From Haliotis asinina (lineage: Eukaryota; Mollusca; Gastropoda; Lepetellida; Haliotidae), in contig NC_090292.1 of the NCBI RefSeq assembly GCF_037392515.1, positions 44,381,747-44,445,746 of the forward strand: DNA of 64,000 nt, in the 5' to 3' direction. Under the pieces are notes generated by a model. The model was given only the letters and a program-made list of their open reading frames with translations, was not told the origin of the DNA and did not search any database. Position numbers and translations under genes: made by a program. The number at the start of each line of letters is the position of its first letter. Position 1 is the stretch's first letter. Shown here piece by piece: positions 3,416 through 58,816 of this stretch.

Positions 3416-3439
3416 CTTTATTGAAAACAAAAAAAAAAA

Positions 3440-15642: not shown

Positions 15643-15785
15643 CCCAGACACCTTTTCTTTTAATCATCATCTCTGTATATCATCAACATTTTCATTTAAT
15701 GTATACTGCTGTATATACTCATGTCCATTCCTATCCTCAAGGTGTCTGGGGAGTATTGTTCTTAGGCCCATTTAATGTAAATAAA
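15643..15785 (+). promoter_or_regulatory. 3' UTR inverted repeat and polyadenylation signal of Tx1 copy B
   Basis: Arms CCCAGACACCTT (15643-15654) and AAGGTGTCTGGG (15739-15750), then AATAAA at 15780-15785 and the A-rich tail. Same layout as copy A. Confidence 0.6.
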
Positions 15786-15914
15786 CTTTATTAAAAACAA
15801 AAAAAAAACAAAAACGGGCAAGTATTTCGAGAGCTAATTCATTCTTTGTTTTGTAGATCGACGGGGTGGCTGGACTTTGTCCTTGTCTTCGGACTCCCCC
15901 CACTTTTCTGGAAT

Positions 15915-19877: not shown

Positions 19878-19890
19878 AGTGTCTCTATGT
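19878..19890 (+). repeat. Target-site duplication of I-like LINE copy 2 (left)
   Basis: AGTGTCTCTATGT here and at 27609-27621, 13 bp, flanking the element precisely. Confidence 0.93.
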
Positions 19891-24218: not shown

Positions 24219-25635
24219 TATATGTAAAAGGGTCTCTAAACATGATTCCGGTAAATGTTTCAGAAGTTGATAATGTATGTTATCAACTCCTGTAGCAGGA
24301 TCATGGGCCTGGTCAAGAGCTGTATGGAGCTCATGAATCGAAAATACCTCGTTGTAATCTTCCCCGTTATCTGAAATAATATTAATAGCTTTCTTTTCTT
24401 GCTGTTTTTGATACTTTTGGAATTGAGGTACATAATTCGAGGAAGAAGAATGTTGTGCCAGTGTGTCTCCAAGTTTATTGGCTATATCTGCTTTATTAGT
24501 TAATAACTGGTTTCCATCTTTGAGATGGTGAACACTAGATCTAGAGCCCTTACCTTTGATTTTCTGGATCATATTCCATGCCTTAGATATAGGTGTGCGC
24601 GAATTGATATTAGATACATAGTTTTGCCAAGATTTACGTTTACTCTGCTTGAAAGTACGCCGAGCTTTAGCATTTTGGATTTTAAATTTGTTCAAATTAT
24701 GAACCATAGGGTGATGACGGAAATAATGTTCGGCCTTTTTCCGTGCTTTCCTAGCTTGTTTGCAATCAGAGTTAAACAAACTATGGTTTCCTTATGTGTG
24801 AAATTGTAGAGGACTGTGGGATACACTCATCAGCAATGGTGTTTAGTATGTCAGATAAATCTTTTATAGCATCAGGAACATTAAGAAAACAATCAGGTCT
24901 AAGTTTGTCAGCACACAGGGTTTCATGTAAAGCCCAGTTGGCCTTTCTAAAATTCCATCGTAATGATGGCGGAACATCAGATGGGTTGACAGGTTTTAAT
25001 GTTGTTGGGAAGTGGTCACTTCCACACAGGCCATCATGGACTGACCACTCAAATTCACTAAATAGGGTGGAATCAGTCATTGACAAATCGAGAGCTGAAT
25101 ATGTTCCCGTGCCAGGATGTAAATATGTCTTTGAACCAACATTATAAATGCATAGATCATTATTTGAGATGAAATCCTCCAGTAATTTACCTTTGGTGTT
25201 TGTATTAGTACCAACCCAGAGCGGGTTGTGGCTGTTTAAATCACCCATGATCAAACAGGGTTTAGGTAGTTGATCATAAAGAGCTTGCAAATCACTTAAC
25301 TGAACAGCAGAAGATGGTGGAAGATACAATGAACATAGAGTAAATGCAACATGTAATGTAAGTCGCACCGCCACGGCCTGGAGATTTGTTTTGAGCGTGA
25401 CTTGACTATGAATAACATTATTCCTCACCAGGATAGATGATCCACCAGTAGCCCTGTCGCCCGGAGGAGAAAAATAATGGTATGCATTAAAATGACGTAG
25501 ATCAAAATTATTCGTCTGCTTTAGATAGGTTTCTTGAAGGCAAAATATTGACGGATTAAGATCTTGGACCAACAGTTGTAAGTCATTAAAATTAGTTCTG
25601 AGTCCTCTACAATTCCACTGAATTATAGACGAAGA

Positions 25636-25640
25636 CATTA
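25636..25640 (-). promoter_or_regulatory. Overlapping ORF1 stop / ORF2 start (TAATG), I-like LINE copy 2
   Basis: On the minus strand the ORF1 stop TAA (25640-25638) shares its last A with the ORF2 start ATG (25638-25636). This is the arrangement that supports termination-reinitiation in other non-LTR elements such as SART1. Reinitiation here is inferred. Confidence 0.7.
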
Positions 25641-26984
25641 TGTCTTCCGAGGAGGATGTACAGGAGATCTACCCCTCGCCTTCCGTGATGGTGACAAGCT
25701 ATGTGTCCTACCAGTGCTATGGTTGGACACATCCATGTCCTAAAGGGATCCAAACTTATTTTATAGCTGGATTTCATCATTTGAACCCTTAGCGAGTCTA
25801 TCGCATTGGTTAAGTCTAGTTATTTTTGGGTTTCCTTTCACAATTTGTTTAACATGAGGTTTATGTACAGGTTTTGATGGACATGAATCTGGTCTAGATT
25901 TGGGACTGGAGGATCTTCTTTTGTCTGGTTGTGTCTTTGGATATGTTGGACCTTTCGGGGAGGAAGACATATGTTGAGAGGACGTCACTGTAGCTGGTAA
26001 AACGTCAGCAGTCTGTGTAGCAGATTCTCCTCGTATTAACAGTTCTTGATTTGGGACAAGTTCAGGAGAAGTAGACTTTGTCCATGTCAGTTCTGTCTGA
26101 CATTCGATGGAGACTGTGGTTGTAGATTGTTTTCTGGTAACAGAAGCATAAGATTCACCTGGGAGGACAGATGGCACAAGTTTCTTAGCTTCAGTATAAC
26201 TGATGTTTTCAGTATGCTTTATTCCATTTACTTCCATTTCCCTTTTTCAAACCGGGCAATTTTTGGACGATGAAGAATGCATGCCTGAGCAGTTGACACA
26301 TTTTCTAAAGTTGTTTGTACAATCTTCTGTCACGTGTGATTGTTCCCCACAATGTGCACAAGTTATTGAGTTTGAACATGAATTCATCCCATGACCACAT
26401 TTCTGGCATTTAACACACCTCAACGGATCGGGAATATACATTTCAACCTGAAGGCTACAATATCCAGCTGTTATTGATCTCGGTGGCGATGGTGATACAA
26501 ATGAAAACAGATACGTGTTAGTTGGAACCACTTCTGAATTCTGACGTCTCGTAAATCGCTTCGCGAACGTGACACCTTCATCTTTAAGTTCTAGCATGAT
26601 GTCAAGTTCGGTCATGTCCGCTAAAAGATGATCCCTATCTCTGACTATACCTTTACTAGAATTGAGGGTCCGATGAACTGACACTGAAACAGGTATTCCA
26701 GCCAATGTATCAATTGACAGCAGGTTAGATGCTTGTTGTCGTTTGCCACATTGTATGAGTAAAGACCCAGATCTCAGTCTCTTGATATTTTTTACGTCCC
26801 CTGCAATACCGTACACTGCTTTAGAAACCGCAAACGGGTTGAGTTTAAGTGGTTTTTTATCCGGGGATTCTATCACTAAAACTCTTGGCCAGTAGTCTAC
26901 TTGCTTAGATGGTCTACAACTATCAGGTGTACTTTGATCAGTTTAAAGTTGACGTTTCTTTTTCAAGGGGGTTTCAGGATCCAT
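25638..26984 (-). pseudogene. I-like LINE copy 2 ORF1 (gag-like), three internal stops
   Basis: ATG at 26984. Contains the conserved KLNPFAVSKAVYGIAGDVKN block, RRM-like strands (GSLLIQCGKRQQASNL) and three CCHC-type knuckles (CVKCQKCGHGMNSC, CAHCGEQSHVTEDC, CVNCSGMHSSSSKNC) at about 26430-26250. In-frame stops: one after the N-terminal basic stretch, TGA replacing Trp just after the third knuckle (26247-26249), and TAA replacing Tyr near 25761. The frame is otherwise continuous to the TAA at 25638-25640. The three knuckles identify it as the ORF1 of a Jockey/I-type LINE. Confidence 0.85.
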
Positions 26985-27548
26985 GTTAATGTATTTAGAT
27001 TCATCATTCCAGCTCCCCACCCACCACGGAGTATCACAAGGACAATGCTGTAAGCAAGTGGACCTCCTACTTGCAGCACCAAGGATACTGGCAAGATATA
27101 CTCAAGCAGAATAATAGAAAGTAATTATTCTACCAGATTGGCCCATGAGCCACCGCCTTCTGGGCATATCACTCTAGGCAAAATACAAAATTGAAGATGT
27201 TTTCTCTTTTCGTTTTAAACATATACGCACAAACCAATGCATCTGACAAAACGTGTAAATAGTTTTCTTGCAGACGTGCATCAAAAATATACATGCCACA
27301 GGGCTCGGTATGACCAGCCGATTGAATGAATCGGGCCCATTCAACCACCCGTCTAGGTGAAGTTAGGGCCAAAGTGGTGTGTTGGGCAACAGGATCACTT
27401 AGTCCCTGTTCCAGTGCCCTCAACCACCAGGATCCCCTCCTCCACCGACACAGGGGCGCAACCCACGGCCAACAGGTTGCCCAATTTGGTCTCCTCGTAC
27501 GACCAGCAATGGGGTTCTGTGGACACATTCTGCCCCGGGTCCACACGG

Positions 27549-27608
27549 GAGAAGAGCACTTAGCGTTATCCAGCACCCACCACGAGGAGGTGGTTCTTCA
27601 TGGGTGCC
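27549..27608 (-). ncRNA. HDV-like self-cleaving ribozyme at the 5' end of I-like LINE copy 2
   Basis: From 27608 on the minus strand: P1 GGCACCC with GGGTGCT; P3 CCAC with GTGG; L3 CTCCTC; then GGATAACG and the active-site strand CTAAG. P2 is GAAGA with TCTTC, a different helix from copies 1 and 5 but still complementary. The 5' base abuts the target duplication. Confidence 0.85.
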
Positions 27609-27621
27609 AGTGTCTCTATGT
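27609..27621 (+). repeat. Target-site duplication of I-like LINE copy 2 (right)
   Basis: AGTGTCTCTATGT, pair of 19878-19890. Confidence 0.93.
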
Positions 27622-30605: not shown

Positions 30606-30835
30606 CAACAAATAAATTGCCAAAGAAAGGCGACTATGCTTGCCGTAAGAGGCGACTAAAGGGATCTGGAGGTCAGACTCGCTAACCTGATTGACACGTC
30701 ATCGGTTCCCATTTGCGTAGATCGATGGTCTTGCTGTTAATCACTGGAATGTCTGGTCCAGACTCGATTATTTACAAACCACCGCCATATAGCTGGAATA
30801 TTGCTGAGTGCGGTGTAAAATTAAAATCACTCGAG
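30606..30835 (+). repeat. SINE-like element
   Basis: Shares with 35311-35558 and 50020-50210 the head GTAAGAGGCGACTAA, the middle CATCGGTTCCCA...GCGNAGATCGATG and the tail CATATAGCTGGAATATTGCT before a CACTC-type end. Short, non-coding and dispersed, so non-autonomous. The tail resembles the 3' end of the I-like LINE. Confidence 0.75.
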
Positions 30836-32919: not shown

Positions 32920-32980
32920 GGCACCCGTAGCGAGCTACCTCCTCGTGGTAGGTGCTGGGTAACGCCAGGAGGTCGCCACC
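32920..32980 (+). ncRNA. Decayed HDV-like ribozyme of the I-like LINE relic
   Basis: GGCACCC pairs with GGTGCT (the seventh pair is now C-A). L3 CTCCTC and GGGTAACGCCAGG are still recognisable. P2 (GCGAG / GTCGC) is partly mismatched. Probably inactive. Confidence 0.6.
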
Positions 32981-33640
32981 CCCTCCGTTGAGGACCTGGA
33001 GGCATATTTGGCTCACCAACACGTTTGCCGTGGACTGCGGTCCTGTGTCGGTGGAGGAAGGGATCCTGGTGGTTGAGTACTGTCAACGGGCCTGGGACCG
33101 TGTTCCTGTTGCTCAACACAACACTTTGGCCTTGATTTCACCTAGACGGGTGGTAGAACTGGCCCGGTTCATGAAATCATACATATATATGTTTGTGGTT
33201 ACTTTAATATGTCTCGTCTTGGTAAACATATGTGTGCATACTATGCATGTACTGTTTCACTATGTTGATTTCTCCGTCATAAGGGATAAAATATTCAGCC
33301 TCAAGACAGTAAAGGACCTTTTCGATATGGTTAATTATCATGTAATCATTTCTTTTTTTAAAACAGATATGTTTGTTAAATGCATGTAAATAAATGAAGT
33401 TTTATTCTTGGTTGTGCAGCTCATGAACTTAATAATGATTGTGGCTGTATCGTCTCGGGAGGTTGAGGTACCTACTCTTCCAGATTACCGGATAACAGCT
33501 CTATTTTCACCGCTGAATCTAACGCCATGTTAACGTATGTAATCTTTTCACACTGTCTTTCTTGCCTTCAGGCTATTAAAAATATTTCTTGTAAACATCC
33601 ACTTTTAACTGAAATTTTTGAAATGTACAATAATCTTGCC
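32920..33640 (+). mobile_element. Rearranged relic of the I-like LINE
   Basis: Contains the 5' end with a decayed ribozyme (32920-32980) and leader to about 33175. A piece of the ORF2 C-terminus follows (33241-33390, FSVIRDKIFSLKTVKDLFDM), then a piece of RNase H (about 33480-33640, LPDNSSIFTAES, HCLSCLQAIKNISCKHP). The RNase H piece should precede the C-terminal piece, so the order is inverted. No function expected. Confidence 0.75.
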
Positions 33641-33681
33641 CGTGTTTTATATTATTGTCTACTTTACGTGAAATGTTTTTA

Positions 33682-33702
33682 CCCCCCCCCCCCCCCCCCC
33701 CC
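33682..33702 (+). repeat. Poly-C tract
   Basis: Uninterrupted run of 21 C on the plus strand, a mononucleotide repeat prone to length change. No relation to a gene seen. Confidence 0.9.
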
Positions 33703-34240
33703 ACCCCTATGTGACGTATGTGATAACCTAGTGGTTCCATTGCCCATCATAGACAGATTTTACTATCCCAAATGGTCTTATTTTTGTACAAATTGCTTTC
33801 CTCACAATAAGGTTGAGGCATTGCCGATGTGTCATTAGAATTCAACTCACTCAGAAACTTCATCTCAGACTAGAATCAGAATTGTATAATCGTGTTTTCA
33901 TCAAAAATGAAAAAAAAACAGTTTAACCAATTTACTCAATTTTATTAGTTCACGGGATACAGTGATAACATGACAAATACAAATAGGAAAACACACATAA
34001 CAGGTTGGCTTGTCTCACTTTATTGCCCTAGAAAACAATTACTCAAAGGCCAAATTCACTACGACTCACAGTTGCCTTGGGGCTAAAATACATTACTTCA
34101 TTGTTTAAATTCTCAGGTTATACAACTAATTTGAAATATCTAATACAAGTCATACACGTGCGATATATTGTTGAGTAGGAAATGACTGTCTTCGTTGAGG
34201 CAGTATCGAGTGTTCTACCTTTAAGACAGGTTACTTTTAG
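33703..34240. other. Non-coding stretch
   Basis: No gene or known repeat recognised. Confidence 0.35.
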
Positions 34241-34940
34241 TGAGTGAGTGAGTTTATATTTATCGTCACATCGGCAATATTTCAGCCATATCGTGACGGG
34301 AACAAAACACTGAAATGGAATATATGTGTATTATAAAAAACCTCTCGACAAAGGACAGTAAAACAACTACAGTATAACAATTTGAGTTAAAACTAGCATG
34401 GAGAGATAAAACTAATATCAACATTTAGACAATACAATATAAAAACTATAGATCGCCAACAAAAGAAGGTAGATCACCATACTAGGGACCATGGGGACTT
34501 ACAGTATCTTTGCTACCTGCAACGACCCTAGTTGGATTTACACCATCCCTTCAGCTGCTGGTGAGTGTACAATATGCTAGCCAAAATTAAAACAACAGGA
34601 ATACTACGATTAAAAACCTGGTAGACTTAAATTTTCTATGAATGTTTTTGGACTTATGTACTCTCTCAGGAGGACAATAATTATACAATACTTCAACCCC
34701 CTTTGAGGGTACAGCCACTAACAACTCTAGTTACGAATCTAAAATACCAATTATTAAAATACATCATTTTACAGAAATATATTGCTCATAATTCAATCAG
34801 AAAATCAATGTCTTTTAAAACTCCAATAATTAAATGAGATCTAACGCTGGTAAAAAGATCCTTAATTGTTTTAACTGTAAAATACTTATCCCTTGTGATG
34901 GAGAATTCAACACAGTCAAGCAAGATATGCTTGACCGTAC
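34241..34940 (-). mobile_element. I-like LINE 3' fragment
   Basis: 5'-truncated copy: the end of ORF2 (about 34940-34786, including FSITRDKYF and a terminal LIEL stop) and the complete 3' UTR down to the AGTGAGTGAG end at 34241. Typical result of incomplete reverse transcription. Confidence 0.85.
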
Positions 34941-35310: not shown

Positions 35311-35558
35311 CCTCAGCAGCCCATGCTTACCATAAAAGGCGACTCAGCTTGTCGTAAGAGGCAACTAACGGGATCGAATGGTCAGGCTCGCTGACTTGGT
35401 TGACACATGTCATCGGTTCCCAGTTGCGGAGATCGATGATCATGTTGTTGGTCACTGGAGTGTCTGGTCCAGGCTCGATTATTTACGGACCGTCGCCATA
35501 TAGCTGGAATATTGCTGAATGCGGCTTAAACCTAACCTCACTCACTCACGCACTCACT
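35311..35558 (+). repeat. SINE-like element
   Basis: Well preserved member of the family at 30606-30835, with head GTAAGAGGCAACTAACGGGA, tail ATATAGCTGGAATATTGCTG and terminal ACTCACTCAC repeats. Confidence 0.8.
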
Positions 35559-42473: not shown

Positions 42474-42486
42474 CTTAAGCGCTTAT
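42474..42486 (+). repeat. Target-site duplication of I-like LINE copy 3 (left)
   Basis: CTTAAGCGCTTAT here and at 49138-49150, 13 bp. Confidence 0.95.
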
Positions 42487-42547
42487 GGCACCCGTGAACG
42501 GCCACCTCCTCGTGGTGGGTGCTGGGTAACGCCAAGAGCCGTTCAAG
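42487..42547 (+). ncRNA. HDV-like self-cleaving ribozyme at the 5' end of I-like LINE copy 3
   Basis: P1 GGCACCC (42487-42493) with GGGTGCT (42517-42523). P2 TGAACGG (42495-42501) with CCGTTCA (42539-42545). P3 CCAC (42502-42505) with GTGG (42512-42515), L3 CTCCTC (42506-42511). GG 42524-42525 can pair with the CC of L3 (P1.1). Candidate catalytic C at 42532 in CCAAG. P2 is perfectly paired although its sequence differs from that of copies 1, 2 and 5. Confidence 0.88.
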
Positions 42548-43111
42548 CCCCCGTGTGGACCCCCGTGTGGTCAACTAGGTCCATAGCACCCCATTGCTGC
42601 TTGCAAGGAGCAACCGAATTGGGCAACCTGTTTGCCGTGGGTTGCGTCCCGTGTCGGTGGAGGACGGTAGTCTGGTGGTTGAGGGCAGTAGGAGCCTGAA
42701 CCGTGTTCCTGTTGATGAACACACCACTTTGGCCCTTACTTCACCTAGACGGATGGTAGAATCGACCCGATTCTATCAATCGGCTGGTCACGCCAAGCCC
42801 TGTGTATGGACTTGTACGTCACTGCACAAATTTAATTTGAAAATGTTTTACATTTGAACTTGGTACATTTATTCATATCAGATGTCAATGATTTGCAATA
42901 TGCTGTTTTCCTCTTTGCCTAGAATCTTATGCCAGAAGGCGGTGGCTCATGGGCCAATCTGGTGGATTAGCTATTTATAACTCTTCTGCTGGAGTATATC
43001 ATCCGAGTATCCTTGGTGCTGCAAGTTGGAGACCCACTTGTGTTTAGCATTGTCCTTGTGATACTCCGTGGTGAGTGGGGAGCTCGGATGATGAACCTTA
43101 AAACATTAATT

Positions 43112-44911
43112 ATGGCTTACGAAACCCCTATCACCAAGAAAAAACGTCCTCTTGACACGGATCCTGATGTTAATGAACAAAGACCGTCCACATCTATTGA
43201 CTATTGGCCACGTTCTATAGTACTTGAGACTGTTGACAAGCCTCCTTTGAAGCTGAACCCTTTTTGCTGTTTCAAAAGGCGTACAAGGCATAGCAGGAGA
43301 TGTTAAAAATGTTAGACGTTTGCGTACAGGTTCACTTCTTATTGAATGTAATAAGAGACAACAGGCAAATAACCTCCTGGCAACTAAATCTTTTGTTGGC
43401 ATTCCCGTATCAGTCTCTGCCCACCGAACGCTTAACACCAGCAAAGGCATAGTGAGAGACCGAGACCGCCTTTTTGCTGATATGCTGGAAATTGATATTG
43501 CCTCAGAGATGAAAGAACAAGGTGTGTTGTATGTAAAACGTTTCACTACCCGTAAACACAATGAGATCCAACAAACAAACACCTTTTTGTTTTCATTGTC
43601 TACTCCGACTGCTCCTAAATCCATAAAGGCTGGTTACTGTCATATCAAAGTGGAAACATATATTCCGAATCCACTGAGATGTTTCAAGTGCCAGAAGTAT
43701 GGGCATGGCGTCAATACTTGCACATTGTCTGTTGTGTGTGCTCACTGTGGTGAGAAGACACACAAAACAGAAGATTGTGACAGTAGTTATAAAAAATGCA
43801 CTAACTGTTCAGGAGAACGTTCCTCTTTTTCAAAAGAGTGTCCAATATGGAAGCAGCAGGTGGAAATAAATAAACTGAAATTTACCCAAAATATTAGTTT
43901 TTCAGAAGCAAAACAGCTTGTTCAAAGATCCGAATTAACAGAAACGTATGCTTCAAAAACTAAGACATCATCTGAGGCGACGAAAAAAGCAACCAGATCA
44001 ACTACAGGTTGCCAAACAGATTTGACGTGGGTGAACACTGATTCCCCACAAACATTTGCACCTGCAATATCTACCCAAACTGCTGAGTTGAAATTTGAAT
44101 TAGCAACTAAGATTGTTAGTGGCTGTATCCTCGAAGGGGGTTGAAGTACCGTAAAATTATTGTCCTCTTGAGAGGGTACGTAAGTCCCAAAAAGTTGAAG
44201 TCAGATTTAATCTTCCACTTTTTTAGTCGTAGAATATGTGTAATTTTAAATTGTGGCTAATCTTGCATACAGTCGCCAGCAGCTGAGGGGATGGTGTAAA
44301 TCCAACTAGGAACCATGCAGGTAGCTGAGGTACTGTAAGTCCCCATGGTCCCTAGTATGGTGATCTACCTTTGGATGTTGGCGATCTATGGCCTGTTTTT
44401 ATATTGTACTGTCCAAATAGTGATAATATTAGCTTTTAAGTTTCTACGCTACTTTTAAATACTAACTGTGATAGTCCAGTGGGTTTACTGTCCTTCGTCG
44501 ACAGGTTCTTCATAATATGATTATATATTCCTTTTTATGTCACATATGTTCTCGTCACAATATGGCTGCAATATTGCCGACGTGACGTTAAATGATAACT
44601 CACTCACTCCTGGCACGTCTCAAAGTCAACCAGAGCCAGATCAAAATGTGTCATCTCAGTCTACCACAAGGTCTCAATTGTTGTGTAACGTGCAACAAAC
44701 TGCTAAATGCAAAAGTAAACATAAGCCGGATTCTTCTCAAAAACAATGTGGAAGAGCCCCAAAAGGGTCCGAAAACAAGATTAAACCTTTCAACAAATAT
44801 GGATCACTTGAGGACATGGACGTGTCTGAAAATGTCCATTTTAGGGCACACAGCTTGTCGCCCACCAAAAAGGTACGGGGTAGATCCCCAATAAACCCCC
44901 CTAAAAGATAG
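43112..44911 (+). pseudogene. I-like LINE copy 3 ORF1, frameshifted and interrupted
   Basis: ATG at 43112 (MAYETPITKKKRPLD). A frameshift near 43270-43320 precedes a long readable part (43320-44085) with RRM-like strands and three CCHC-type knuckles (CFKCQKYGHGVNTC, CAHCGEKTHKTEDC, CTNCSGERSSFSKEC). A LINE 3' fragment at 44085-44607 interrupts it. The C-terminal tail (FNKYGSLEDMDVSENVHFRA, SPINPPKR) ends at TAG 44909-44911, whose first two bases overlap ATA, the first ORF2 codon. Role as in the other ORF1 copies. Confidence 0.85.
44085..44607 (+). mobile_element. Nested I-like LINE 3' UTR fragment inside ORF1 of copy 3
   Basis: Corresponds to the complete family 3' UTR (compare 56085-56604), from AAGATTGTTAGTGG to ACTCACTCACTC, inserted in the same orientation within ORF1. 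Target duplication not identified. Confidence 0.85.
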
Positions 44912-47900
44912 TTTACTCCCACAATATTGTACAGTGGAATTGCAGAGGACTAAGGCATAATTATAATGAGTTACAGTTATTGGTCCAGGATTGTACGCCG
45001 TCAGCAGTCTGTCTGCAGGAGACCTATTTAAAGCAGACAGATCTTTTTGAGCTACGTCATTTCAATGCTTATCGTTGTTTCTCAACTCCGGGTGACAGAG
45101 TCACTGGAGGATCTTCAATCCTAGTCAAACGGAATGTTATCCATAGCCCCATTACGCTCACTACTAATCTTCAAGCAGTTGCCGTCCGACTCACTTTACA
45201 TGTTACCCTTACATTATGTTCTTTGTATGTCTCACCGTCTACAGCTCTTCAGAAGACCGACCTTCAAACCCTATACGATCAACTTCCCAAACCGTGTATT
45301 ATTATGGGAGATTTGAATGGCCATAACCCACTCTGTGGCGGTACAACTACGAATACTAAAGGTAAACTATTAGAAGAGTCCTGTTCAGATAACGATTTAT
45401 GCTTATATAATGACGGTTATAACACATATTTACACCCTGGGACAGGGACCTATTCTGCTCTCGACTTGTCACTCACAAATTCAGAACTACTAAATGAATT
45501 CGAATGGTCAGTCCACGATGACCTCTGTGGAAGTGACCATTTTCCTACTATACTAAATTCTGTAACTCCACCTGATGTTCCTCCATCATCAAGGCGAAAT
45601 TTTAAAAAGGCTAACTGGGCTTTATATGAAACACTGTGTGCTGAAAAACTTAAACCCGAATGGTTTATTGACGATCCTGATGCTATTAACTGCTTTTCTG
45701 ATGAATTGAACTCTATAGCTGATGAGTGTATACCAAAGTCCTCTGCAGTTCCACATATAAGAAAACCATGGTTCAACGATGAATGCAAACAAGCTAGGAA
45801 GGCAAGGAAAAAAGCAGAGTATTATTTCCGTCGCCATCCTATGGTGCATATAATTTAAATAAATTTAAAATTTTAAATGCTAAAGCGCGGCGTACTTTTA
45901 AACAGAACAAACGCCAATCTTGGCAAAGTTATGTATCCAAAATAAATTTTCGGACACCCATGTCCAACGTATGGAACATGGTCCAGAAAATTAAAGGTAA
46001 AGGTACTAAATCTACTGTCCATCATCTTAAACATGGAGATCAGTTACTTACTGATAAATCAGATATTGCAAATAAACTGGGCGAAACTCTCGCTAAACAC
46101 TCTTCCTCTTCTAATTATTTACATAAATTCCAGCAGTATCAACAACAACAAGAAAAGAAAACTATTAATTTCAATTCTGATAATGGGGAAGATTATAATG
46201 AAACGTTTTCTATTCATGAACTCCATACTGCTTTTGATCAAGCTCATGACACTGCTACAGGAGCTGATAACATACATTTTCAACTCCTGAAAACATTTAC
46301 CAGAATCCTGTCTGGAAACTCTCCTAAATATTTTTGATGATATTTGGACATCGGGTAACTTTCCTCCTTCATGGTGTGATGCCATAGTAGTACCAATACC
46401 TAAACCTGGACGTGATCATACGGATCCATCTAATTATCGTCCGATTTCATTAACTAGCTGTGTTTGCAAGACCATGGAACGCATGATAAATAATCCACTT
46501 GTTTGGTACTTGGAAACAAATAACCTTATCACAGATATACAATGTGGTTTCCGTAAAAACAGAAGTACTGTTGATCACTTAGTGCGACTGAAATCATTTG
46601 TTAAAAACGCACTAATTAACAACCAACACGCTTTTTTGATCTTGAAAAAGCATATGACACTACTTGGAAATATGGCATTTTACGAGATTTACATGACTTC
46701 GGGTTGCGAGGCCGTTTGCCTGAATTTATAGCCATGTTTTTAAATAACAGACAATTCCAGGTCCGTTTGGGTTCTACCCTGTCTGATCATTACAATCAAG
46801 ATCAGGGTGTTCCACAAGGCAGTATTTTGTCTGTCACTCTTTTTAGCATCAAGATCAACAGTTTATCAAAAGTTTTAAACGATTCAATTGATGGATCGTT
46901 ATTTGTGGATGATTTTAATATTTCTTGTCGTGGTAAAAATATGCATACCATTGAACGGCAATTGCAGTTGTGTTTAAACAAAACAAATAAATGGTGTCTT
47001 GAAAACGGCTTTAAATTTTCGAAATCCAAAACTAATTGCATACATTTTTGTCGTAAATGCAAACCCCATAGAGACCCTGAACTATCTCTAGATGGGGCGC
47101 CCATTAAAGTTGTGAAGGAAGCCAAATTCTTGGGTCTAATCTTTGATTCACATTTAACTTTTTTACCACATATTAAATCACTTAAAACTAAATACCTGAA
47201 AGCACTTGACTTGTTGAAAGTTGTTTCAAATTCAAAATGGGGAGGGGATCAAGCTACCCTTCTCCATCTATATCGATCACTCGTTCGTTCTAAACTTGAT
47301 TATGGCTCCAGCGTCTATGGTGGAGCCTGCAAAAGCAATCTTAAACTTCTTGATTCTGTCCATCACCAAGGTCTAAGACTTTGTCTTGGGTCCTTCAGAA
47401 CTTCACCTATTGACAGTCTTTACGTTGAGGCCGATGAACCATCTCTTGCACAACGCTGTATCAAATTATCTTTACAATATATCACAAAACTTTACTCTAA
47501 CGAATCAAACCCTGCATATAACTGTGTCTTCAATCCTCTTTATGAGGATTTATATAGCAAGAAGTCTTCTCTTGCTCCACCTCTTGGGCTCAGAATAAAG
47601 CTGTTTATTGCTGCTGCTGGTATTGAGCTGGACAATATAGCTCCCTTCCGTCTTCTTTCTTCTCCCCCTTGGCAGTTGGTTGGGCCACAGGTGGACCTAA
47701 CATTAACTAAATTTAAAAAATCAGAAACGAATGAGTTACAGTATAAACAAGAATACAATCAATTGAAACATACATATAACAATTACAAATCCTTATTTAC
47801 AGATGGGTCCAAGGACGGTGGTGCAGCTGCTTGTGCGACTGTCATTGGATCCAGAACAATATCTTCTAGATTACCCGAAAATAGTTCTATTTTTACAGCA

Positions 47901-48590
47901 GAAGCGAACGCCACATTAACAGCTCTTAAATATATTAAAAGACACCCTAAACGTAAACAGTATATAATATATTCCGACTCTCTTTCTTGCCTTCAGGCTA
48001 TTAAAAATATTTCTTGTAAACATCCACTTTTAATAGAAATTATTGAACTGTATAATACTCTTGCTAATGGCCAATACGACATCGTCTTTTGTTGGTTACC
48101 CAGTCACGTAGGTATTTCTGGGAATGTGGTGGCCGATCTTGCCGCAAAAGCAGCAGTCAACAAATCTGTGACACCACTTCTTATTCCATACTCTGATTAC
48201 AAAGCCATCATTAGATCTTTTATCGGTGATCTGATGCAGAAGAAGTGGGACACTCAAGTGGGTATCAATAAGTTACATGAAATAAAACCTTACATTGGTT
48301 ATACCCACTTGGGTTGTCAGTCCAGATTTGAAGAGGTCATACTACGACGATGTCGTATTGGGCATACAAGATTTACCCATAACTACCTGTTAAAAGGTGA
48401 GGATCCTCCATTTTGTATCCCTTGTGATGAGAGGGTCACGGTCAAGCATATTCTGCTTGACTGTGTTGAATTCTCCATCACAAGGGATAGATATTTCAAT
48501 GTCAGAACCATCAAGGATCTTTTTACCACTGTTGCTTCTCATTTAGTTATTTGTTTTTTAAAAGAAAATGATTTTTTGGTTGAATTTTGA
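44908..48590 (+). pseudogene. I-like LINE copy 3 ORF2, frameshifted
   Basis: Readable pieces: endonuclease 44980-45858 (CLQETYLKQTD, MGDLNGHNPL, SDHFPTIL); linker 45960-46337; RT start 46380-46620; and a long piece 46704-48590 with RT palm (LFVDDFNISC), RNase H (LFTDGSKDGGA, YSDSLSCLQAI, PSHVGISGNVVADLAAKAA) and the intact C-terminal zinc tail (HTRFTHNYLLKGE, CIPCDE, VKHILLDC). Frameshifts lie near 45855, 46300 and 46630. The last 628 residues are uninterrupted. One substitution (ATL for AIL) is in the RNase H core helix. Confidence 0.87.
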
Positions 48591-49137
48591 GTAATATGTT
48601 CTGTAAATAGATGTATTTTAAATCATTGGTAGTTTAGATTAGTAATTTGTATTGTTAGTGGCTCTACCCTCAAAGGGGGTTGAAGTATTGTAAAATTATT
48701 GTCCTCCTGAGAGGGTATGTAAGTCCCAAAACATTCGATGTAAATTTAAGTTTACGAGGTTTTTAATCGTAGTATTCTTGTCATTTTAAATTTGGCTAGC
48801 ATTTCGTACACTCGCCAGCAGCTGAGGGGATGATGAAAATCCAGCTAGGATCCATGCAGGTAGCAAAGGTACTGTAAGTCCCCATGGTCCCTAGTATGGT
48901 GATCTACCTTCTGTTGTTGGCGATCTATATCCCGTGTTTTATAATGTATTGTCTTCTTTAATTACAATGTTTTAGTTTTTCATGCTGGTTTTATATTCAT
49001 GTCTGTGATATTCTAGTGTTGTTACTGTCCTTTGTTGACAGGTTTTTATATTACACATATATTCCATTTCACTGTTAAGTTCCCGACACGGTATGGCTGA
49101 AATATTGCCGATGTGACGTTAAATGTTAACTCACTCA

Positions 49138-49150
49138 CTTAAGCGCTTAT
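49138..49150 (+). repeat. Target-site duplication of I-like LINE copy 3 (right)
   Basis: CTTAAGCGCTTAT, pair of 42474-42486. Confidence 0.95.
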
Positions 49151-50019: not shown

Positions 50020-50210
50020 AAGCAAATGTGTCGTAAGAGGCGACTAACGGGATCGGGTGGTCAAGCTCGCTAACTTGGTTGATACATGTCATCAGTTCCC
50101 AATTGCGCAGATCGATGCTCATGTTGTTGATCACTGGGTTGTTTGACCGCCGCCATATAGCTGGAATATTGCTGACTTTGGCGTAAAACTAAACTCACTC
50201 ACTCACTAAA
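50020..50210 (+). repeat. SINE-like element
   Basis: Member of the family at 30606 and 35311: GTAAGAGGCGACTAACGGGA, GCGCAGATCGATGCTCATG, CCATATAGCTGGAATATTGC, ending ACTCACTCACTC. Confidence 0.8.
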
Positions 50211-50407: not shown

Positions 50408-51115
50408 AATGATTTATTACACAAGACCTCATAGGTCCATACACAAACGAGTTACATGTGTACATCAGTATGGAGACATGGATGGGTTAAACGGAAATGT
50501 AATTCAATTAAGAAAACAAAGTTTGGCGTAATATCAATATTAACGCTAAGTGCTCTTCTCCCGTGTGGACCCGGGACAGAATGTGTCCACAGCACCCCAT
50601 GGCTTGTCGTAAGAGGCGACTAAATTGGGCAACCTGTTTGCCGTGGGTTGCGTCCCGTGTCGGTGGAGGACGGTAGTCTGGTGGTTGAGAGCAGTAGGAG
50701 ACTGAACCATTTTGCTCCTATTGCTCAACACACCACTTCGGCCCTTACTTCACCTAGACGGGTGGTAGAACTGGCCCAGTTCTATCAATCGGCTGGTCAC
50801 GCCAAGCCCTGAGCTACAACTATGTAATGCTCAAAATTTATAAAACTGTTGCTTTGATTTTTCATGCTTGGCTATTTTGAAATTGTTCGTTCAAACCCAT
50901 CATGTTATGTATGTTTTTGCCTAGAGTCGTATGCCCAGAAGGCGGTGGCTCATGGGCCAATCTGGTGGAATGATTACACTTTTAATTTTTCTGCTGGAGT
51001 ATATCATCCGGGTATCCTTGGTGCTGCAAGCTGGAGATCCGCTTGTTTTTAGCATTGTCCTTGTGATACTCCGTGGTGGGTGGGGAGCTCGGATGACGAA
51101 TCATTACCACTTAGC

Positions 51116-52383
51116 ATGGAATACCAAACCCCAAACAAAAAAACGAAACGTCCACTTGACATTGATTATGATGAACAGCGACCTTCGAAATCCGTTGATT
51201 ATTGGCCTCGTTTCCTACTTCTTGAGACTCTTGATCAAACTCCATTAAAGCTGAATCCGTTTGCTATATCAAAAGGTATCCACGGAATAGCAGGAGAAAT
51301 TAAAGATGTGAAACGCTTGCGTTCAGGATCTCTGTTGCTTGAATGTAATAGAAAACAACAAGCAACCAATCTGCTGTCCACTGAAATGTTTGTTGGAGTT
51401 CCGGTTAAGGTGTCTGCACATAGAACTCTGAACACCAGTAAAGGTATTGTAAGAGATCGAGACCGTCTATTTGCAGATATGACTGAGTTTGACATTGTAT
51501 CAGAAATGAAGAATCAAGGAGTGATAGATGTAAAACGATTTTCAATCCGGAAGAATAATGAGGTTGTTCCAACTAACACGTACCTGTTTTCATTCTCTGC
51601 ACCAAATGCACCAAAATCAATCAGGGCAGGTTACTGCAATGTTAACGTTGATTTGTACATCCCCAATCCTTTGCGGTGTTTTAAATGCCAAAAATATGGA
51701 CATGGTATGAACACTTGCACATTGTCTGTTGTGTGTGCTCACTGTGGTGAGAAAACAGACACAACAGAAGATTGTGACAGTGATTTTAAAAAATGCACCA
51801 ACTGCTCAGGCGATCATTCGTCATTTTCTAAACAGTGTCCTATTTGGAAAGAGCAAATGGAGATAAACAGAATAAAATTTACTGAAAATATCTCCTTTTC
51901 TGAGGCAAAAAAACTGGTACAGAGAGCTGATCTTCCAGAAAGTTATGCTACAGTAGCAAAAACACCATCTGAGTCTACCTCTAAAAGAACAAAAACATCA
52001 ACAGGCTGCCAAACTACCTTGACTTGGGTCAATTGCGACTCTCCACAGATGCTATACCCTGCTATATCATCACAGACTGAGGAATCACTTCCTAGTACAT
52101 CCAAGTCATCTTCTGATCACAAATCATCATCATCTCAGTCACACTCAAAGCCTCAGCTGATAGTCAACACACTGTTAAAAGCAAACCTAAGCCTAAGCCT
52201 GATGCTTCAAAACACCAAAGTGGCAGAGCTACTAAAGGGTCACAAAACAAAATTCAATTGTTCAACAAATATGGGTCTCTTGAAGACATGGACGTTTCTG
52301 AAAACGTCCATTCTAGGGCACATAGCTTGTCGCCCTCCAAAAGAGTGCGGGGTAGATCCCCAATAAATCCCCCCAAAAGATAG
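51116..52383 (+). pseudogene. I-like LINE copy 4 ORF1, C-terminal frameshift
   Basis: ATG at 51116 (MEYQTPNKKTKRPLD). Conserved LNPFAISKGIHGIAGEIKDV, RRM-like strands (GSLLLECNRKQQATNL) and three complete CCHC-type knuckles (CFKCQKYGHGMNTC, CAHCGEKTDTTEDC, CTNCSGDHSSFSKQC at about 51675-51840). About 350 residues are intact. A frameshift near 52160 leads to a wrong-frame tail ending at 52366, whereas the family tail (SPINPPKR) ends at TAG 52381-52383. This is the best preserved knuckle region of the family here. Confidence 0.87.
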
Positions 52384-55300
52384 TTTATTCCAACAATATT
52401 CTACAGTGGGACTGCAGAGGACTGAGGACTAACTTACATGAATTACAGCTATTAGTCCAAGATTTTACACCTTCAGCGATCTGTCTGCAGGAGACTTATT
52501 TAAAACAGACAGATACTTTCGATCTTCGTCATTACAAAGTATATCATTGCTTGTCACCTCCAGGTGATAAGGCCACGGGAGGATCTTCCATTCTAATCAA
52601 AGACAACATTATCCATAGCCCCGTTTCACTTAATACTAATCTTCAGGCCGTTGCAGTACGACTAACTTTGCACGTTGCTTTTACGTTATGCTCACTCTAT
52701 ATCTCTCCGTCTTTGACGTTTGCCAAAACTGATCTTCAAGCTCTGTATGACCAACTCCCGAAGCCCTGTGTTATAATGGGAGATCTGAATGGGCACAACC
52801 CACTCTGGGGTAGTGTAACTACTAACGCTAAAGGTAAATTGTTGGAGGACTTTTGTTCTGACAATGATTTATGTATTTATAATGATGGTTCCAACACATA
52901 TTTACACCCTGGGACAGGGACCTATTCTGCTCTTGACTTGTCATTGACAAATTCAGAACTACTAAATGAATTCGAATGGTCAGTCCACGATGACCTCTGT
53001 GGAAGTGACCATTTTCCTACTATTCTCAAATCTGTAACTCCATCTGATGTTCCTCCATCATCAAGGCGGAATTTTAAAAAGGCTAACTGGGCTTTATATG
53101 AAACACTGTGTGCGGAGAAACTTAATCCTGAACGTTTTATTGACGTTCCTGATGCTATTAAATGTTTTTCTGAGGAACTGAATTCCATAGCTGATGAGTG
53201 TATACCAAAGTCCTCTTCAGTTCCACACATAAGAAAACCATGGTTCAACGCTGAGTGCAAACAAGCTAGGAAGGCAAGGAAAAAAGCAGAGCATTATTTC
53301 CGTCGCCATCCTATGGTGCATAATTTAAATAAATTTAAGATTTTAAATGCTAAAGCACGGCGTACTTTTAAACAGAACAAACGCCAATCTTGGCACAATT
53401 ATGTATCCAAAATACATTCTCGGACACCCATGTCCAACGTATGGAACATGGTCCAGAAAATTAAAGGTAAAGGTACTAAATCTACTGTCCATCATCTTAA
53501 ACATGGAGATCAGTTACTTACTGATAAATCAGATATCGCAAATAAACTGGGCGAAACTCTCGCTAAACACTCTTCCTCTTCTAATTATTTACATAAATTC
53601 CAGCAGTATCAAAAACAACAAGAAAAGAAAACTATTAATTTGAACTCTGATAATGGGGAAGATTATAATGAAACGTTTTCTCTTCATGAACTCCATACTG
53701 CTCTTGATCAAGCTCATGATACTGCTACAGGAGCTGATAACATACTTTATCAACTCCTGAAGCACTTACCAGAATCCTGCCTAGAAACTCTTCTAAATAT
53801 TTTTTATGAGATTTGAACATCGGGTAACTTTCCTCCTTCATGGTGTGACGCCATAGTAGTACCAATACCTAAACCGGGACGTGATCATACAGATCCGTCC
53901 AATTATCGACCTATTTCACTAACAAGCTGTGTTTGCAAGACCGTGGAACGCATGATAAATAATCCACTTGTTTGGTACTTGGAAACAAATAACCTTATCA
54001 CAGATATACAATGTGGTTTCCGTAAAAACAGAAGTACTGTCGATCACTTAGTGCGTTTAGAATCAATTCTGAAAAATGCGCTGATTATTCAACAACATGC
54101 TGTGTCTATCTTTTTTGATCTTGAGAAGGCATATGACACTACTTGGAAATATGGCATTCTGAGAGATTTACATGACTTCGGTTTGCGAGGTCGTTTGCCT
54201 CAATTCATAGCCAAATTTTAAAATAACAGGCAATTTCAAGTCCGTGTGGGTTCTACCCTGTCTGATCATTACAATCAGGATCAGGGTGTTCCACAAGGCA
54301 GTATTTTGTCAGTCACTCTTTTTAGCATCAAGATCAACAGTCTATCTAAAGTTTTAAATGATTTAATAGATGGATCTTTATTTGTGGATGATTTTAATAT
54401 TTCTTGTGGTAAAAATATGCATACCATTGAACGGCAATTGCAGCTGTGTTTAAACAATATAGATAAATGGTGTCTTGAAAACGGCTTCAAATTTTCTAAA
54501 TCAAAAACCAATTGTATACACTTCTGTCGTAAATACAAACCCCATAAAGACCCAGAACTATATCTCAGTGGTGCCCCGATCAAAGTGGTCAAGGAGGCCA
54601 AGTTCTTGGGACTTATTTTCGACTCACATTTGACCTTTATGCCGCATATTAAATCCCTTAAAGCCAAATGCCTGAAGGCACTCGATTTATTAAAGTTTGT
54701 TTCAAATTCAAAATGGGGAGGGGATCAAACTACCCTCCTTCACTTATATAGATCACTGATCCGATCGAAACTTGATTACGGTTCCATCGTAAATGATGGC
54801 GCTTGTCAAAGCAACCTAAAACTACTTGATCCTGTTCACCACCAAGGCCTGAGACTTTGTCTCGGTTCTTTTAGAACCTCTCCTATCGACAGTCTGTACG
54901 TCGAAGCTGATGAGCCTTCTCTCAACTTACGTCGTATCAAACTATCTTTACAATACATTACAAAATTAGCTTGTAATGAGTCTAATCCCGCATTTAATTG
55001 TGTCTTTAATCCTCTTTATGAGGATTTGTATGACAAAAAGTCTTGCCTTGTTCCGCCTCTTGGGCTCAGAATTAAGCCATTTCTTGCTGCTTCTAGCATT
55101 GAGCTGGAAAATATAGCTCCTTCTCGTCTTCTTTCTTCTCCTCCTTGGCAGGTGGTTAGGCCACAAGTTGACCTAACATTAACATCATTTAAAAAATCAG
55201 AAACCAATGAATTACAGTATAGACAAGAATATAACCAATTGAAACATAAATATAACAATTATAAATCCTTATTTACAGATGGGTCCAAGGACGATGGCGG

Positions 55301-56066
55301 AGTGGCTTCTGCCACTGTCATTGGATCCAGAACAATATCTTCTAGATTACCCGAAAATAGTTCTATTTTTACAGCTGAAGCTAATGCCATATTAACAGCT
55401 CTTAAATATATTCAAAGATACCCTAAACGTAAACAATATATAATTTATTCAGACTCTCTTTCTTGTCTTCAGGCTATTAAAAATATTTCTTGTAAACATC
55501 CACTTTTAATAGAAATTATTCAATTGTATAATGATCTTGCTACTGGCCAATACGACATCGTCTTCTGTTGGTTACCCAGCCACGTAGGTATTTCTGGTAA
55601 CACACTGGCTGACCTTGCTGCTAAAGCAGCACTCAACAAATCTGTGACGCCTCTTCTTATTCCATACACTGATTACAAAGCTTGCATTAGAACGTATATC
55701 CGTGATCTGATGCAGAAGAAGTGGAACACTCAGGTAGGTATCAATAAATTACATGAAATAAAACCGTATATTGGTTACACCTACTTGGGTTTTCAGTCCA
55801 GATTTGAGGAGGTCATCTTGCGACGATGTCGCATTGGCCACACAAGATATACACATGGATATCTGCTTAAAGGTGAGGATCCTCCTTTTTGCGTCCCTTG
55901 TGATGAAAGAATCATGGTCAAGCATGTTTTGCTTGACTGTGTTGAATATTCCATTACAAGGGACACATATTTCAAATCCCGAACTATGAAGGATCTTTTT
56001 AATAATGTCAGTTATCATTTAATTATTGCGTTTTTAAAAGAATTAGATTTATTAAGTGAGTTGTAA
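52380..56066 (+). pseudogene. I-like LINE copy 4 ORF2, nonsense mutations
   Basis: Frame from ATA 52380 (overlapping the ORF1 TAG) through the endonuclease (ILQWDCRGLR, CLQETYLKQ, MGDLNGHNPLWG, SDHFPTIL). TGA at about 53814 replaces the Trp found in copy 3 and TAA at about 54219 replaces Leu. From 54246 the RT palm (LFVDDFNIS), RNase H (LFTDGSKDDGG, EANAILTALKYI, PSHVGISGNTLADLAAKAA) and the zinc tail run uninterrupted to 56066. Compared with copy 3 the active-site loop lacks one residue after FNISC. Confidence 0.88.
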
Positions 56067-56610
56067 ATAATTAAATATTTTATTATTGGTAGTTTAGATT
56101 AGTAACTGAGATTGTTAGTGACAGTACCCTCAAAGGGGGTTGAAGTATTGTAAAATTATTGTCCTCCTAAGAGGGTACGTAAGTCCTGAAACATTCAAAG
56201 TGAATTTAAGCTTACCAGGAGTTTTAAATGTAGTATTTCTGTTATCTTAATTCTGGCTAAGATTCCTACAATCGTCAGCGGCTGAAGTGATGGTGTAAAT
56301 CCAGCTAGGGTTCATGCAGGTAGCAAAGGCACTGTATGTCCTCATGGTCCCTAGTATGGTGATCTACCTTCAGCTGTTGGCGATCTATAGCCTGTTTTTA
56401 TACTGTGTTGTCCCTTCTGGCTCAAAGGTTTTATATATAATTACTAGTTTTACATGTATATCTGTGATATTCTAGTTATTTTACTGTCCTCTGACGACAG
56501 ATTCTTTAACATATGCATATATTCCATTTAAATGTGAAATGTTCCCGTCATGATATGGCTGAGATATTGCCGATGTGACGTTAAATATTAACTCACTCAC
56601 TCACGCCTGT

Positions 56611-56671
56611 GGCACCCGTGGCGAGCCACCTCCTCGTGGTGGGTGCTGGGTAACGCTAAGAGCTCGCCAAC
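56611..56671 (+). ncRNA. HDV-like self-cleaving ribozyme at the 5' end of I-like LINE copy 5
   Basis: P1 GGCACCC with GGGTGCT (56641-56647); P2 GGCGAG with CTCGCC (56663-56668); P3 CCAC with GTGG; L3 CTCCTC; then GGGTAACG and the active-site strand CTAAGAG with candidate catalytic C at 56656. P1 has six Watson-Crick pairs plus the starting G-U wobble. Confidence 0.88.
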
Positions 56672-57199
56672 ACCCCCGTAGTGGACCCGGGGGAATATTT
56701 GGTCCACCAACCCGTTTGCCGTGGGTTGCGGCCCTGTGTCGGCGGAGGAGGGGATCCTGGTGGTTGAGGGCAATATGGACCTGTAACCGTGTTCCTGTTG
56801 CTCAATGCACCACTTTGGCCCTGACTTCGCCTAGACGGGTGGTCGAATGGGCCCGGTTCGACCAATCGGCTGGTCATGCCAAGCCCTGTGCGTGGATTAT
56901 TTATGTAATTGCACAGATTTGATGTACTGTTTCAATTTTGGCCTTGGCTTTTTCATTCATATATAACTTTTAGATTTGAAAACTGACGTTATGAACTTTG
57001 CCTAGAGTCTTATGCCCAGAAGGCGGTGGCTCATGGGCCAATCTGGTGGATCGATTAATTTTGAATTAGTCTTCTGCTGGAGTATACCATTCCAGTATCC
57101 TTGGTGCTGCCAGTGGGAGAGCCACTGGTATATAGCATTGTCCATGTGATACTCGGTGGAGGGTGGGGAGCTGGGATGGTGAACTTTCTATTATTAACC

Positions 57200-58410
57200 A
57201 TGGCTCAACCCAAAAAACACAAACGAGCACTAGATGAGTGTTTGTCCTCGGACGAGGACAGTGCTACAAACAGATTACCGGATACATGGAGCAGATTTTT
57301 GGTTGTATCTTCTGCTGACGGTGAACCTCTAAAACTCAATCCATTTGCCACATCAAAAGCAATTTATGGACTTGTTGGGGATGTCCAAGCTGTTACAAAA
57401 ATTAGATCTGGGTTTCTCCTCATAGAGTGTAAAACAGCGAAACAATCAGCTACCCTCATAGGTACAAAACAGCTTGCTAATACTGCAGTATCTGTTTCAC
57501 CCCATAAGTCTTTGAACAGCGGCAAAGGCATCTTGAGAGACAGGGACCGGTGGCTTTCCCACATGAGTGAAACAGAAATCTCCACTGAACTACAAAATCA
57601 AGGAGTCACTCATGTCAAACGATTCACTTTTAAGAAAAATGGAGAAACTTTCAATACAAATACTTATTTGATTTCTTTTTCACAACCGAAACATCCAAAG
57701 TGTATCAAAGCTGGATATTGTAATATCGAAGTGGAGCAATATATTCCAAATCCACTTCGTTGTTACAAGGTCACGGTGCCCAATCTTGCAGGAATCGTGC
57801 AACATGCTACAGATGTGGTAAAGAAGATCATGAAGGTTCTGACTGTTTGTCTTCTCCAAAATGTGTTAATTGTCTGGGAGACCATATGTCTTCATCAAAG
57901 TCATGTGAAATCTGGAAACGTGAATATGAAATTATCAAAATCAAAACTCAAAAGAATGTCACCTATCATGAGGCAAAACGTTTAGTAAATGCAGCCTTGC
58001 CTCAGTCATCAAATATAACATACTCTGCTGTCGTTGCTCGCCCTCGTGTTAAATCTGTGCTGTCTGTTTCATGTCAGACAGATATCACCTGGGTCAAAGC
58101 TGACAAACACACTTTAAGCACAACAGATTCTGATGGTGATAAGAATCATGCAACATCAGCTTGCCAGACTGAATCACAAACAATATCTCCTGCAGTGAAA
58201 AATCCTTGTCATAAAGTAGATTATAGACAAAAATCTGATCGAGTACAAAAGGGATCACGTGATCCTGTACAAGTCTATAACAAGTTTCAACTTTTAGAAG
58301 ACATGGACGTCTCTCCTCATCCCCGTGCATTTCATCGTGCGCGAAATAGAAGCAGTTCGCCTCGGAAGGGGAAAAGTCGGTCCCCAGTACTACCACCTGC
58401 TATTAAATGA
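57200..58410 (+). pseudogene. I-like LINE copy 5 ORF1, one frameshift
   Basis: ATG at 57200 (MAQPKKHKRALDE). Divergent but recognisable KLNPFATSKAIYGLVGDVQ block and RRM-like strands (GFLLIECKTAKQSATL). A frameshift near 57770 falls inside the first zinc knuckle. The second frame then gives two more knuckles (CYRCGKEDHEGSDC, CVNCLGDHMSSSKSC) and runs to TGA 58408-58410. The tail ends RSPVLPPAIK. The stop overlaps the ORF2 start as ATGA. Confidence 0.85.
58407..58410 (+). promoter_or_regulatory. Overlapping ORF2 start / ORF1 stop (ATGA), I-like LINE copy 5
   Basis: ATG 58407-58409 and TGA 58408-58410 share two bases. Translational coupling by reinitiation is the simplest reading. Confidence 0.65.
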
Positions 58411-58816
58411 ACAGTAATTCCTTAATCCAATGGAATTGCAGAGGACTTAGGACCACTTTTAATGAAGTACAACTACTAGCACAGGATTATAAACCATCAG
58501 CATTTAGTTTTCAAGAAACATACTTGAAACAAACTGATAAATTCGAATTGCGTAAATACCATTCTTATCATTCTTTTTCACCCCCTGGTGACAAAGCCAC
58601 TGGTGGATCTTCCATATTGGTGAGACATGGTACTATTCATAGCCCTGTTCCACTTAAAACCAATCTTCAGGCTGTTGCTGTTCGTCTTACTTTACATATA
58701 ACACTTACCCTTTGTTCCTTGTATATCTCCCCTTCTTCCATTCTCCATCAGAATGATCTTCAAGATTTGTATGACCAATTACCAAAACCCTGTATCATAA
58801 TGGGTGATCTCAATGG
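58407..58816 (+). pseudogene. I-like LINE copy 5 ORF2, truncated endonuclease
   Basis: MNSNSLIQWNCRGLRTTFNE begins the APE endonuclease, with FQETYLKQTD, GDKATGGSSIL and IIMGDLNG. It is uninterrupted up to the Polinton boundary at 58816. A further ten bases are read by chance into the Polinton end. Confidence 0.88.

Follow-up and report, generated by a model that had tools for sequence, protein, structure and literature searches.

Does the sequence that opens at position 42487 of the window studied here (the whole 64,000-nt stretch from Haliotis asinina) encode a self-cleaving ribozyme, as a preliminary description of this DNA proposed, and, if so, what does it do for the LINE that follows it? 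On the sequence evidence assembled below, this LINE family very probably opens with ~58 nt that encode an HDV-like self-cleaving ribozyme without a P4 helix, which would free the LINE RNA from read-through transcripts and fix its 5' end.

Five copies in the window open with GGCACC, at 12072 and 27608 on the minus strand and at 32920, 42487, and 56611 on the plus strand. Four of them (all except 32920) had been described previously, and their positions and GGCACC starts hold, but that list was incomplete, the ribozyme copy at 32920 having been missed. The ribozyme of copy 3 (42487 to 42547, plus strand; P2 class C, GAACGGC/GCCGTTC) scores 83.7 bits against a model built from copy 3 itself. Alignment and model matches place the ribozymes of copy 1 (12012 to 12072, minus strand; P2 class A), copy 2 (27548 to 27608, minus strand; P2 class B with one A-C mismatch), and copy 5 (56611 to 56671, plus strand; P2 class A), the last lying just 3' of the tail of copy 4, while Rfam and model matches place that of the 32920 copy (32920 to 32980, plus strand; an imperfect class A P2). 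Copy 4, on the plus strand, is truncated within the ribozyme and has lost its 5' side, leaving a remnant at 50541 to 50561 that was recovered by window self-comparison.

The LINE copies themselves were delimited by self-comparison of the window, combined for the first three with target duplications. Copy 1 spans 6076 to 12072 (minus strand); copy 2 spans 19891 to 27608 (minus strand) and is interrupted at ~22708 to 24219; and copy 3 spans 42487 to 49137 (plus strand) and carries an extra block at ~44040 to 44690, part of which resembles the 3' end of the LINE itself. Copy 4 (50541 to 56604, plus strand) is 5' truncated, and copy 5 is represented by its 5' part (56611 to 58816, plus strand), its 3' end not having been located in the window. 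Copies 4 and 5 stand head to tail, ~6 nt (GCCTGT) apart at 56604 to 56611, an arrangement in which a read-through transcript of copy 4 would enter the ribozyme of copy 5 directly. The copy at 32920 to 34938 is scrambled, consisting of the first 250 nt followed by fragments of the 3' part of the LINE, and a further 3' fragment lies close by in the opposite orientation (34239 to 34938).

ORF2 of copy 1 (6950 to 10345, minus strand) encodes an AP endonuclease (Pfam PF14529/PF03372), a reverse transcriptase (PF00078), and an RNase H (PF00075), an order of domains that is the I-group layout and that bears out the earlier assignment of the host to the I-like LINEs. ORF1 (10776 to 11591, minus strand), a partial open reading frame, shows cysteine motifs by eye and has no Pfam match. 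A protein search with the reverse transcriptase region of ORF2 matched 4129 proteins; most of the 120 listed are unnamed, those that are named are animal reverse transcriptase proteins (Araneus, Plakobranchus, and Nymphon), and the few listed from bacterial bins were taken for contamination. We presume the Nimb clade to be the favored candidate for this family. As described in PMC10294476, the I-superfamily clades of molluscs are Ingi and Nimb, a single unknown clade in O. sinensis excepted.

Several other repeats share the window. A short interspersed repeat, present at 30626 to 30832, 35335 to 35543, and 50029 to 50206, has a 3' end (ATAGCTGGAATATTGCTGA..., and ACTCACTCAC at 50200) that resembles the LINE 3' tail, and its GTCGTAAGAGGCGACTAA motif, in the copy at 50029, recurs in the 5' UTR of LINE copy 4; it is possibly a SINE moved by the ribozyme-bearing LINE. 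A U1 snRNA-like sequence at 3433 to 3570 (79.8 bits; gathering score, 69.5) is without the normal 5' end and begins within the A-rich 3' terminus of a copy (3 to 3438) of a different LINE family. No U1 match follows the second copy of that other LINE (12386 to 15808), and the junction at 3433 reflects either a target-site preference or a chimera. Frames on the minus strand between 58959 and 63633 resemble, by eye, the DNA polymerase B and integrase of Polinton/Maverick elements.

By sequence complementarity, all five window copies can form the nested double pseudoknot of the HDV type, with helices P1, P2, P3, and P1.1 and a catalytic C at position 46, the paired alignment columns being 1 to 7 with 31 to 37 (P1), 9 to 16 with 52 to 59 (P2), 18 to 20 with 28 to 30 (P3), and 22 to 23 with 38 to 39 (P1.1). 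Counting of aligned pairs places the 5' strand of P1 in copy 3 at 42487 to 42493 (with predicted cleavage before 42487), the 5' strand of P2 at 42496 to 42502, the ACC of P3 at 42504 to 42506, loop L3 (TCCTCGT) at 42507 to 42513, with the CC side of P1.1 at 42508 to 42509, the 3' strands of P3 and P1 together with the GG of P1.1 at 42514 to 42525, and the 3' strand of P2 at 42538 to 42544. The P1, P2, and P1.1 of the preliminary fold stand, but its P3 (CCAC/GTGG around an L3 of CTCCTC) is replaced by the canonical register, in which P3 is ACC/GGT and L3, TCCTCGT, directly abuts the P1 3' strand GGGTGCT. In HDV, L3 likewise abuts the 3' strand of P1, and the structure line of RF02682 agrees with this layout. 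An alternative local hairpin, CCACC/GGTGG, forms 5 of 5 pairs in all five window copies, and since the 32920 copy retains it through a two-sided change at the cost of one P1 pair, the border between P1 and P3 given here is provisional.

The previously recognized strands of P2 do pair, and the helix is longer than had been thought by a C16-G52 pair that is identical in all five copies. Counting seven pairs and allowing G-U, P2 is complete in three copies and forms 6/7 pairs at 27608 and 5/7 at 32920. P1.1 is CC/GG, and a 6-nt spacer (GTAACG, or ATAACG in copy 2) is all that separates it from the catalytic C, a distance at which P4 must be absent. The P4 helix occurs in most HDV-like ribozymes, not all. 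It is dispensable for activity according to PMC3774820.

A larger sample was drawn from the genome with an exact 22-nt core (ACCTCCTCGTGGTNGGTGCTGG): 72 genome loci (including L035 and L051) and the five window copies make up an alignment of 77, with no row dropped, and 70 of the 72 loci come from 0.77 to 2.80 Mb of a single contig, C1. The C at position 46 of copy 3 (42532), which we take to be the counterpart of the HDV catalytic C, is a C in 74/77 copies; the adjacent position 47 varies (T in 37, C in 36, G in 3, and A in 1), and position 48 is A in 77/77, which reproduces the C-N-A pattern of J4/2 that includes the catalytic C. Among the five window copies, 38 of the 46 ribozyme columns outside P2 are invariant, versus 105 of 184 ungapped columns in the stretch that follows. 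Energies of nested folds, computed without pseudoknots, are not lower than those of shuffled sequences (z scores of -0.2 to -1.6), and we count them as no support.

The pairing itself was measured against two controls, alignments in which the 3' partners were slid by 1 to 3 columns and shuffled alignments. Of 100 base-pair cells in the five-copy alignment, 95 hold standard pairs, versus 30 to 49% when slid. Both partners changed in four P2 pairs (G-C to A-U, C-G to A-U, G-C to C-G, and A-U to G-C) versus none when slid; 26 of 500 shuffles yield as many such pairs, but none of the 500 attains the six two-sided cells or the covariation score. In the alignment of 77 copies, which has 50 distinct rows, pairs fill 952 of 1000 cells, versus 32 to 50% when slid, and 36 cells are two-sided, versus a shuffle mean of 8.2 and slid values of 2 to 8. 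Two further measures on the 77 copies are unexceptional. The count of pairs with a two-sided change, four, is attained in 226 of 500 shuffles, and slid alignments yield as many as five; the number of further pair types, 15, is the same as the average over shuffles.

The two strands of P2 also agree in class from copy to copy. Sorted by strand, the 77 copies comprise 55 A/A, 9 B/B, and 5 C/C and no crosses, the remaining 8 being rows with a mutated or unclassed strand. Against this, some P2 strands crossed between window copies could still pair at 6/7 places with G-U allowed: the 3' strand of copy 2 does so with copies 1, 3, and 5, and the 3' strand of the 32920 copy with copies 1 and 5, the remaining crosses pairing only 3 to 5. 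Compensatory change in P2, proposed at first from 4 copies, extends to 77, and the wider alignment that could have shown P2 changes to be uncompensated shows strands matched in three classes. A small number of evolutionary events may underlie all of these classes. No P1 pair changed on both sides in the copies aligned. P3 and P1.1 are invariant in the five window copies; the constancy of P3, L3, P1.1, and most of the P1 3' strand in the 77 proves nothing, because those copies were picked by the exact core. An HDV-fold descriptor, composed after the family had been seen and therefore a gauge of rarity rather than a means of discovery, gives five hits in the window, which are the family copies, versus 6 hits in 40 first-order Markov windows. 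Its hit at 32920 takes another C and a P2 strand ~50 nt downstream (33016 to 33027), the aligned P2 of that copy having too many imperfections.

In the copies examined, the ribozyme begins exactly where the LINE begins. Across the 77 copies, mean pairwise identity per column is 0.24 to 0.28 at positions -11 to -1 (0.28 at -1) and rises to 0.92 at +1, the expected HDV cleavage site; this jump, together with target duplications ending at -1, upholds the earlier placement of the ribozyme at the exact 5' end of the element. In the window self-comparison, pairwise matches extending to the 5' end break off at GGCACC or at most 1 base from it, and some others end short of it owing to the high divergence of the 5' UTR. 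Twenty class C copies, taken from 14 contigs and chosen among exact class C matches, likewise all have different flanks directly before GGCACC.

Four copies keep their 5' end intact and can also be read at the far end, and in 4/4 the target duplication is 11 to 13 nt long and ends at -1. Flank comparison shows 13-nt duplications directly before GGCACC in copies 1, 2, and 3: CTTAAGCGCTTAT at 42474 to 42486 and 49138 to 49150 for copy 3 (plus strand), TCTAGTCCCTCCC at 12073 to 12085 and 6063 to 6075 for copy 1 (minus strand), and ACATAGAGACACT at 27609 to 27621 and 19878 to 19890 for copy 2 (minus strand), the 5' side being given first in each case. L042, a shortened copy in a stretch chosen regardless of the family, has an 11-nt duplication ending at -1. 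No target duplication was found for the copies at 32920, 50541, and 56611, and a candidate for copy 4 was rejected, its sole match lying within the copy's own tail. Downstream of 32 genome loci (L004 to L033, L035, and L051), which hold too little sequence for a full element, the matches are of chance length (9 nt in L004 and 8 or 7 nt in a few others) and lie away from tails; L035 has a tail-like end 278 nt downstream and neither an intact 5' end nor a duplication.

Further upstream, columns -13 and -12 are pyrimidine rich, with G in 3 and 2 of the 77 copies (P = 1.2e-6 and 2.9e-5 versus the pooled flank at -11 to -1), and G occurs at neither column in the separate set of 20 class C copies. 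The simplest cause would be a target (nicking-site) preference of the endonuclease, seen through a near-constant duplication length.

The family is very abundant. The 22-nt core occurs 4972 times (2491 and 2481 on the two strands) in the 1.143-Gb genome, versus 0 occurrences of the reversed core, and the first 100 of these places listed are all on contig C1. Exact-core copies are dense in parts of C1 between 0.77 and 2.90 Mb, where, judged by eye, a few are flanked by what seems to be coding sequence of this LINE, and some may be nested insertions. The class C ribozyme, allowing up to 3 mismatches, has 538 places in the genome (reversed control, 0), of which the 100 listed are spread over 15 contigs (C1 to C16 without C8), and among the 20 class C copies its P2 is followed by three different downstream backgrounds. 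Of twelve 10-kb stretches sampled at round coordinates (L042 to L053), two hold a strong model match, as does one of eight stretches next to the window, where the matching copy has a decayed P1; two more matches, at 12.1 and 10.6 bits, are at noise level.

Existing covariance models recover the family poorly. RF02682 (HDV-F-prausnitzii) is the best match at 27608, 42487, and 56611 and RF00094 (HDV_ribozyme) at 32918, all with 25 to 31 bits, below the gathering scores of 44 and 50; the copy at 12072 has no Rfam HDV match at E values up to 10, and six further genome loci have none at the gathering score. The genome search with an HDV covariance model by which the preliminary description had hoped to collect family members came to nothing with RF00094, which matched neither the genome nor any of its 14 controls. 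In our judgment, the scores below gathering weigh little because the HDV models of Rfam are narrow. Searches for relatives elsewhere found none among viral contigs, by pattern or by protein, and none among plasmids. A scan of genome contigs returned three related loci in bacterial records (L001 to L003), which are probably contaminants; neither the descriptor nor the model finds a ribozyme in them, which says little since L001 and L002 stop short of the 5' end and L003 is distant (28% identity).

Taken with the P2 compensation, the position at the 5' end, and the LINE host, the fold supports the HDV-like reading first proposed for this sequence, self-cleavage being what we infer from it. The ribozyme fold probably cuts the RNA of the element free from its neighbors. 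The LINE would be transcribed mostly by read-through from whatever lies upstream, and the nascent RNA would fold and cleave itself cotranscriptionally before G1. The freed RNA, beginning 5'-OH-GGCACC, would then be translated, and target-primed reverse transcription would copy it to that very end, with insertion accompanied by a short duplication. Copying to the cut end of the RNA would mean that every new copy again opens with a complete ribozyme, and an intact ribozyme would keep full-length copies autonomous wherever they insert, host flank being removed from the template. Such a sequence of cutting, reverse transcription to the new end, and short duplication would give exactly the borders described above.

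The same 5' end could instead be a conserved structured 5' UTR (a promoter, an IRES, or a protein-binding signal) that is shaped like HDV and does not cleave, the element's precise start being that of an internal promoter at G1. Cleavage is here deduced from sequence, and Pr77 of L1Tc is both promoter and ribozyme by the account in PMC8256844, so one sequence can serve both roles; what such a UTR leaves unexplained is why the features kept are the catalytic set of HDV (the C in 74/77 copies, with L3 and P1.1 in all five window copies) and why the element starts exactly at the HDV cleavage site. These features count against a structure that does not cleave, and we consider this explanation improbable. 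Chance complementarity in a GC-rich repeat might be argued from the unremarkable nested folding energies and from the two covariation measures that do not rise above shuffles, but the paired-cell and two-sided-cell counts against slid and shuffled controls, the strand-matched classes of P2, and the coincidence of the fold with the border of the element make it hardly credible.

Very unlikely, if less so than chance, is a history in which the founding elements had an active ribozyme and most copies seen today carry an inert remnant of it, preserved because the family amplified recently and not because selection acts on every copy. Many copies are indeed mutated, C46 being lost in 3/77, several lacking a P1 or P2 pair, and L035 having no P1 5' strand, whereas three strand-matched P2 classes, with class C on several backgrounds, speak against such a history. 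This possibility concerns individual copies and is compatible with a self-cleaving ribozyme in active lineages.

Judged by the sequence evidence, then, the ribozyme family is real, covarying, and HDV-like, and it belongs to a LINE-borne kind that is already known. HDV-like ribozymes at LINE 5' ends are described in PMC3774820 and PMC4035085, and PMC3774820 cites Webb and Luptak (2011) for one from an abalone, Haliotis discus, in which 5 nt replace P4. As PMC3774820 describes it, the Haliotis discus ribozyme is likewise HDV-like, from a mollusc, and reduced to 5 nt at P4; it is possibly of the same family, in which case the family has already been reported, with or without its host element. The novelty suggested in the preliminary description is accordingly smaller, given the LINE-borne kind and the P4-less Haliotis discus case as presented in PMC3774820. 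That paper is the only one our literature search found to link HDV-like ribozymes with Haliotis or abalone, and the search found none joining the hepatitis delta virus ribozyme, LINE, and Nimb.

Among LINEs, the Pr77 ribozymes of L1Tc/ingi in trypanosomatids are likewise HDV-like and at the 5' end of elements with endonuclease, reverse transcriptase, and RNase H, and they differ from HDV and R2 in the orientation of a GC pair in P1 and in P1.1, as PMC4035085 describes them. Their hosts are trypanosomatids, where a promoter function is established, whereas the present LINE is in a mollusc. The ribozymes of R4/Dong, RTE, and baggins also cleave at LINE 5' ends and belong to other LINE elements, as named in PMC3774820. 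R2 ribozymes, in the same account, have the same fold, lack P4 in silkmoth R2s, and set the junction by cleavage; R2, unlike the present LINE, is specific to rDNA and has a single ORF. R2s that cut at their own 5' end have junctions that vary by deletions and added nucleotides, according to PMC3774820, whereas the junctions of the present LINE are exact in 4/4 readable cases, with duplications of 11 to 13 nt.

We regard as evenly balanced the broader proposal that this mollusc LINE family, with its 4972 exact cores and at least three P2 classes on different backgrounds, has its 5' end defined by a P4-less HDV-like ribozyme, and that the fixed end of the template leads to exact 5' joining and a near-constant duplication, unlike in the imprecise R2s that cut at their own end. 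The family extends LINE-borne HDV-like ribozymes to an abundant lineage with AP endonuclease, reverse transcriptase, and RNase H in an animal, and it may supply the host for the abalone ribozyme reported in 2011. Its thousands of copies in one genome offer abundant natural covariation data on a minimal fold without P4, and so compact a ribozyme shows clearly how a cut could set the start of an element. The family also allows one to ask whether the ribozyme cut is what makes LINE 5' junctions exact; if it is, the family would let the contribution of ribozyme cleavage to 5' junction precision be told apart from that of the integration machinery. The contrast between exact junctions here and variable ones in R2s would, if upheld in a larger survey, be the most interesting point.
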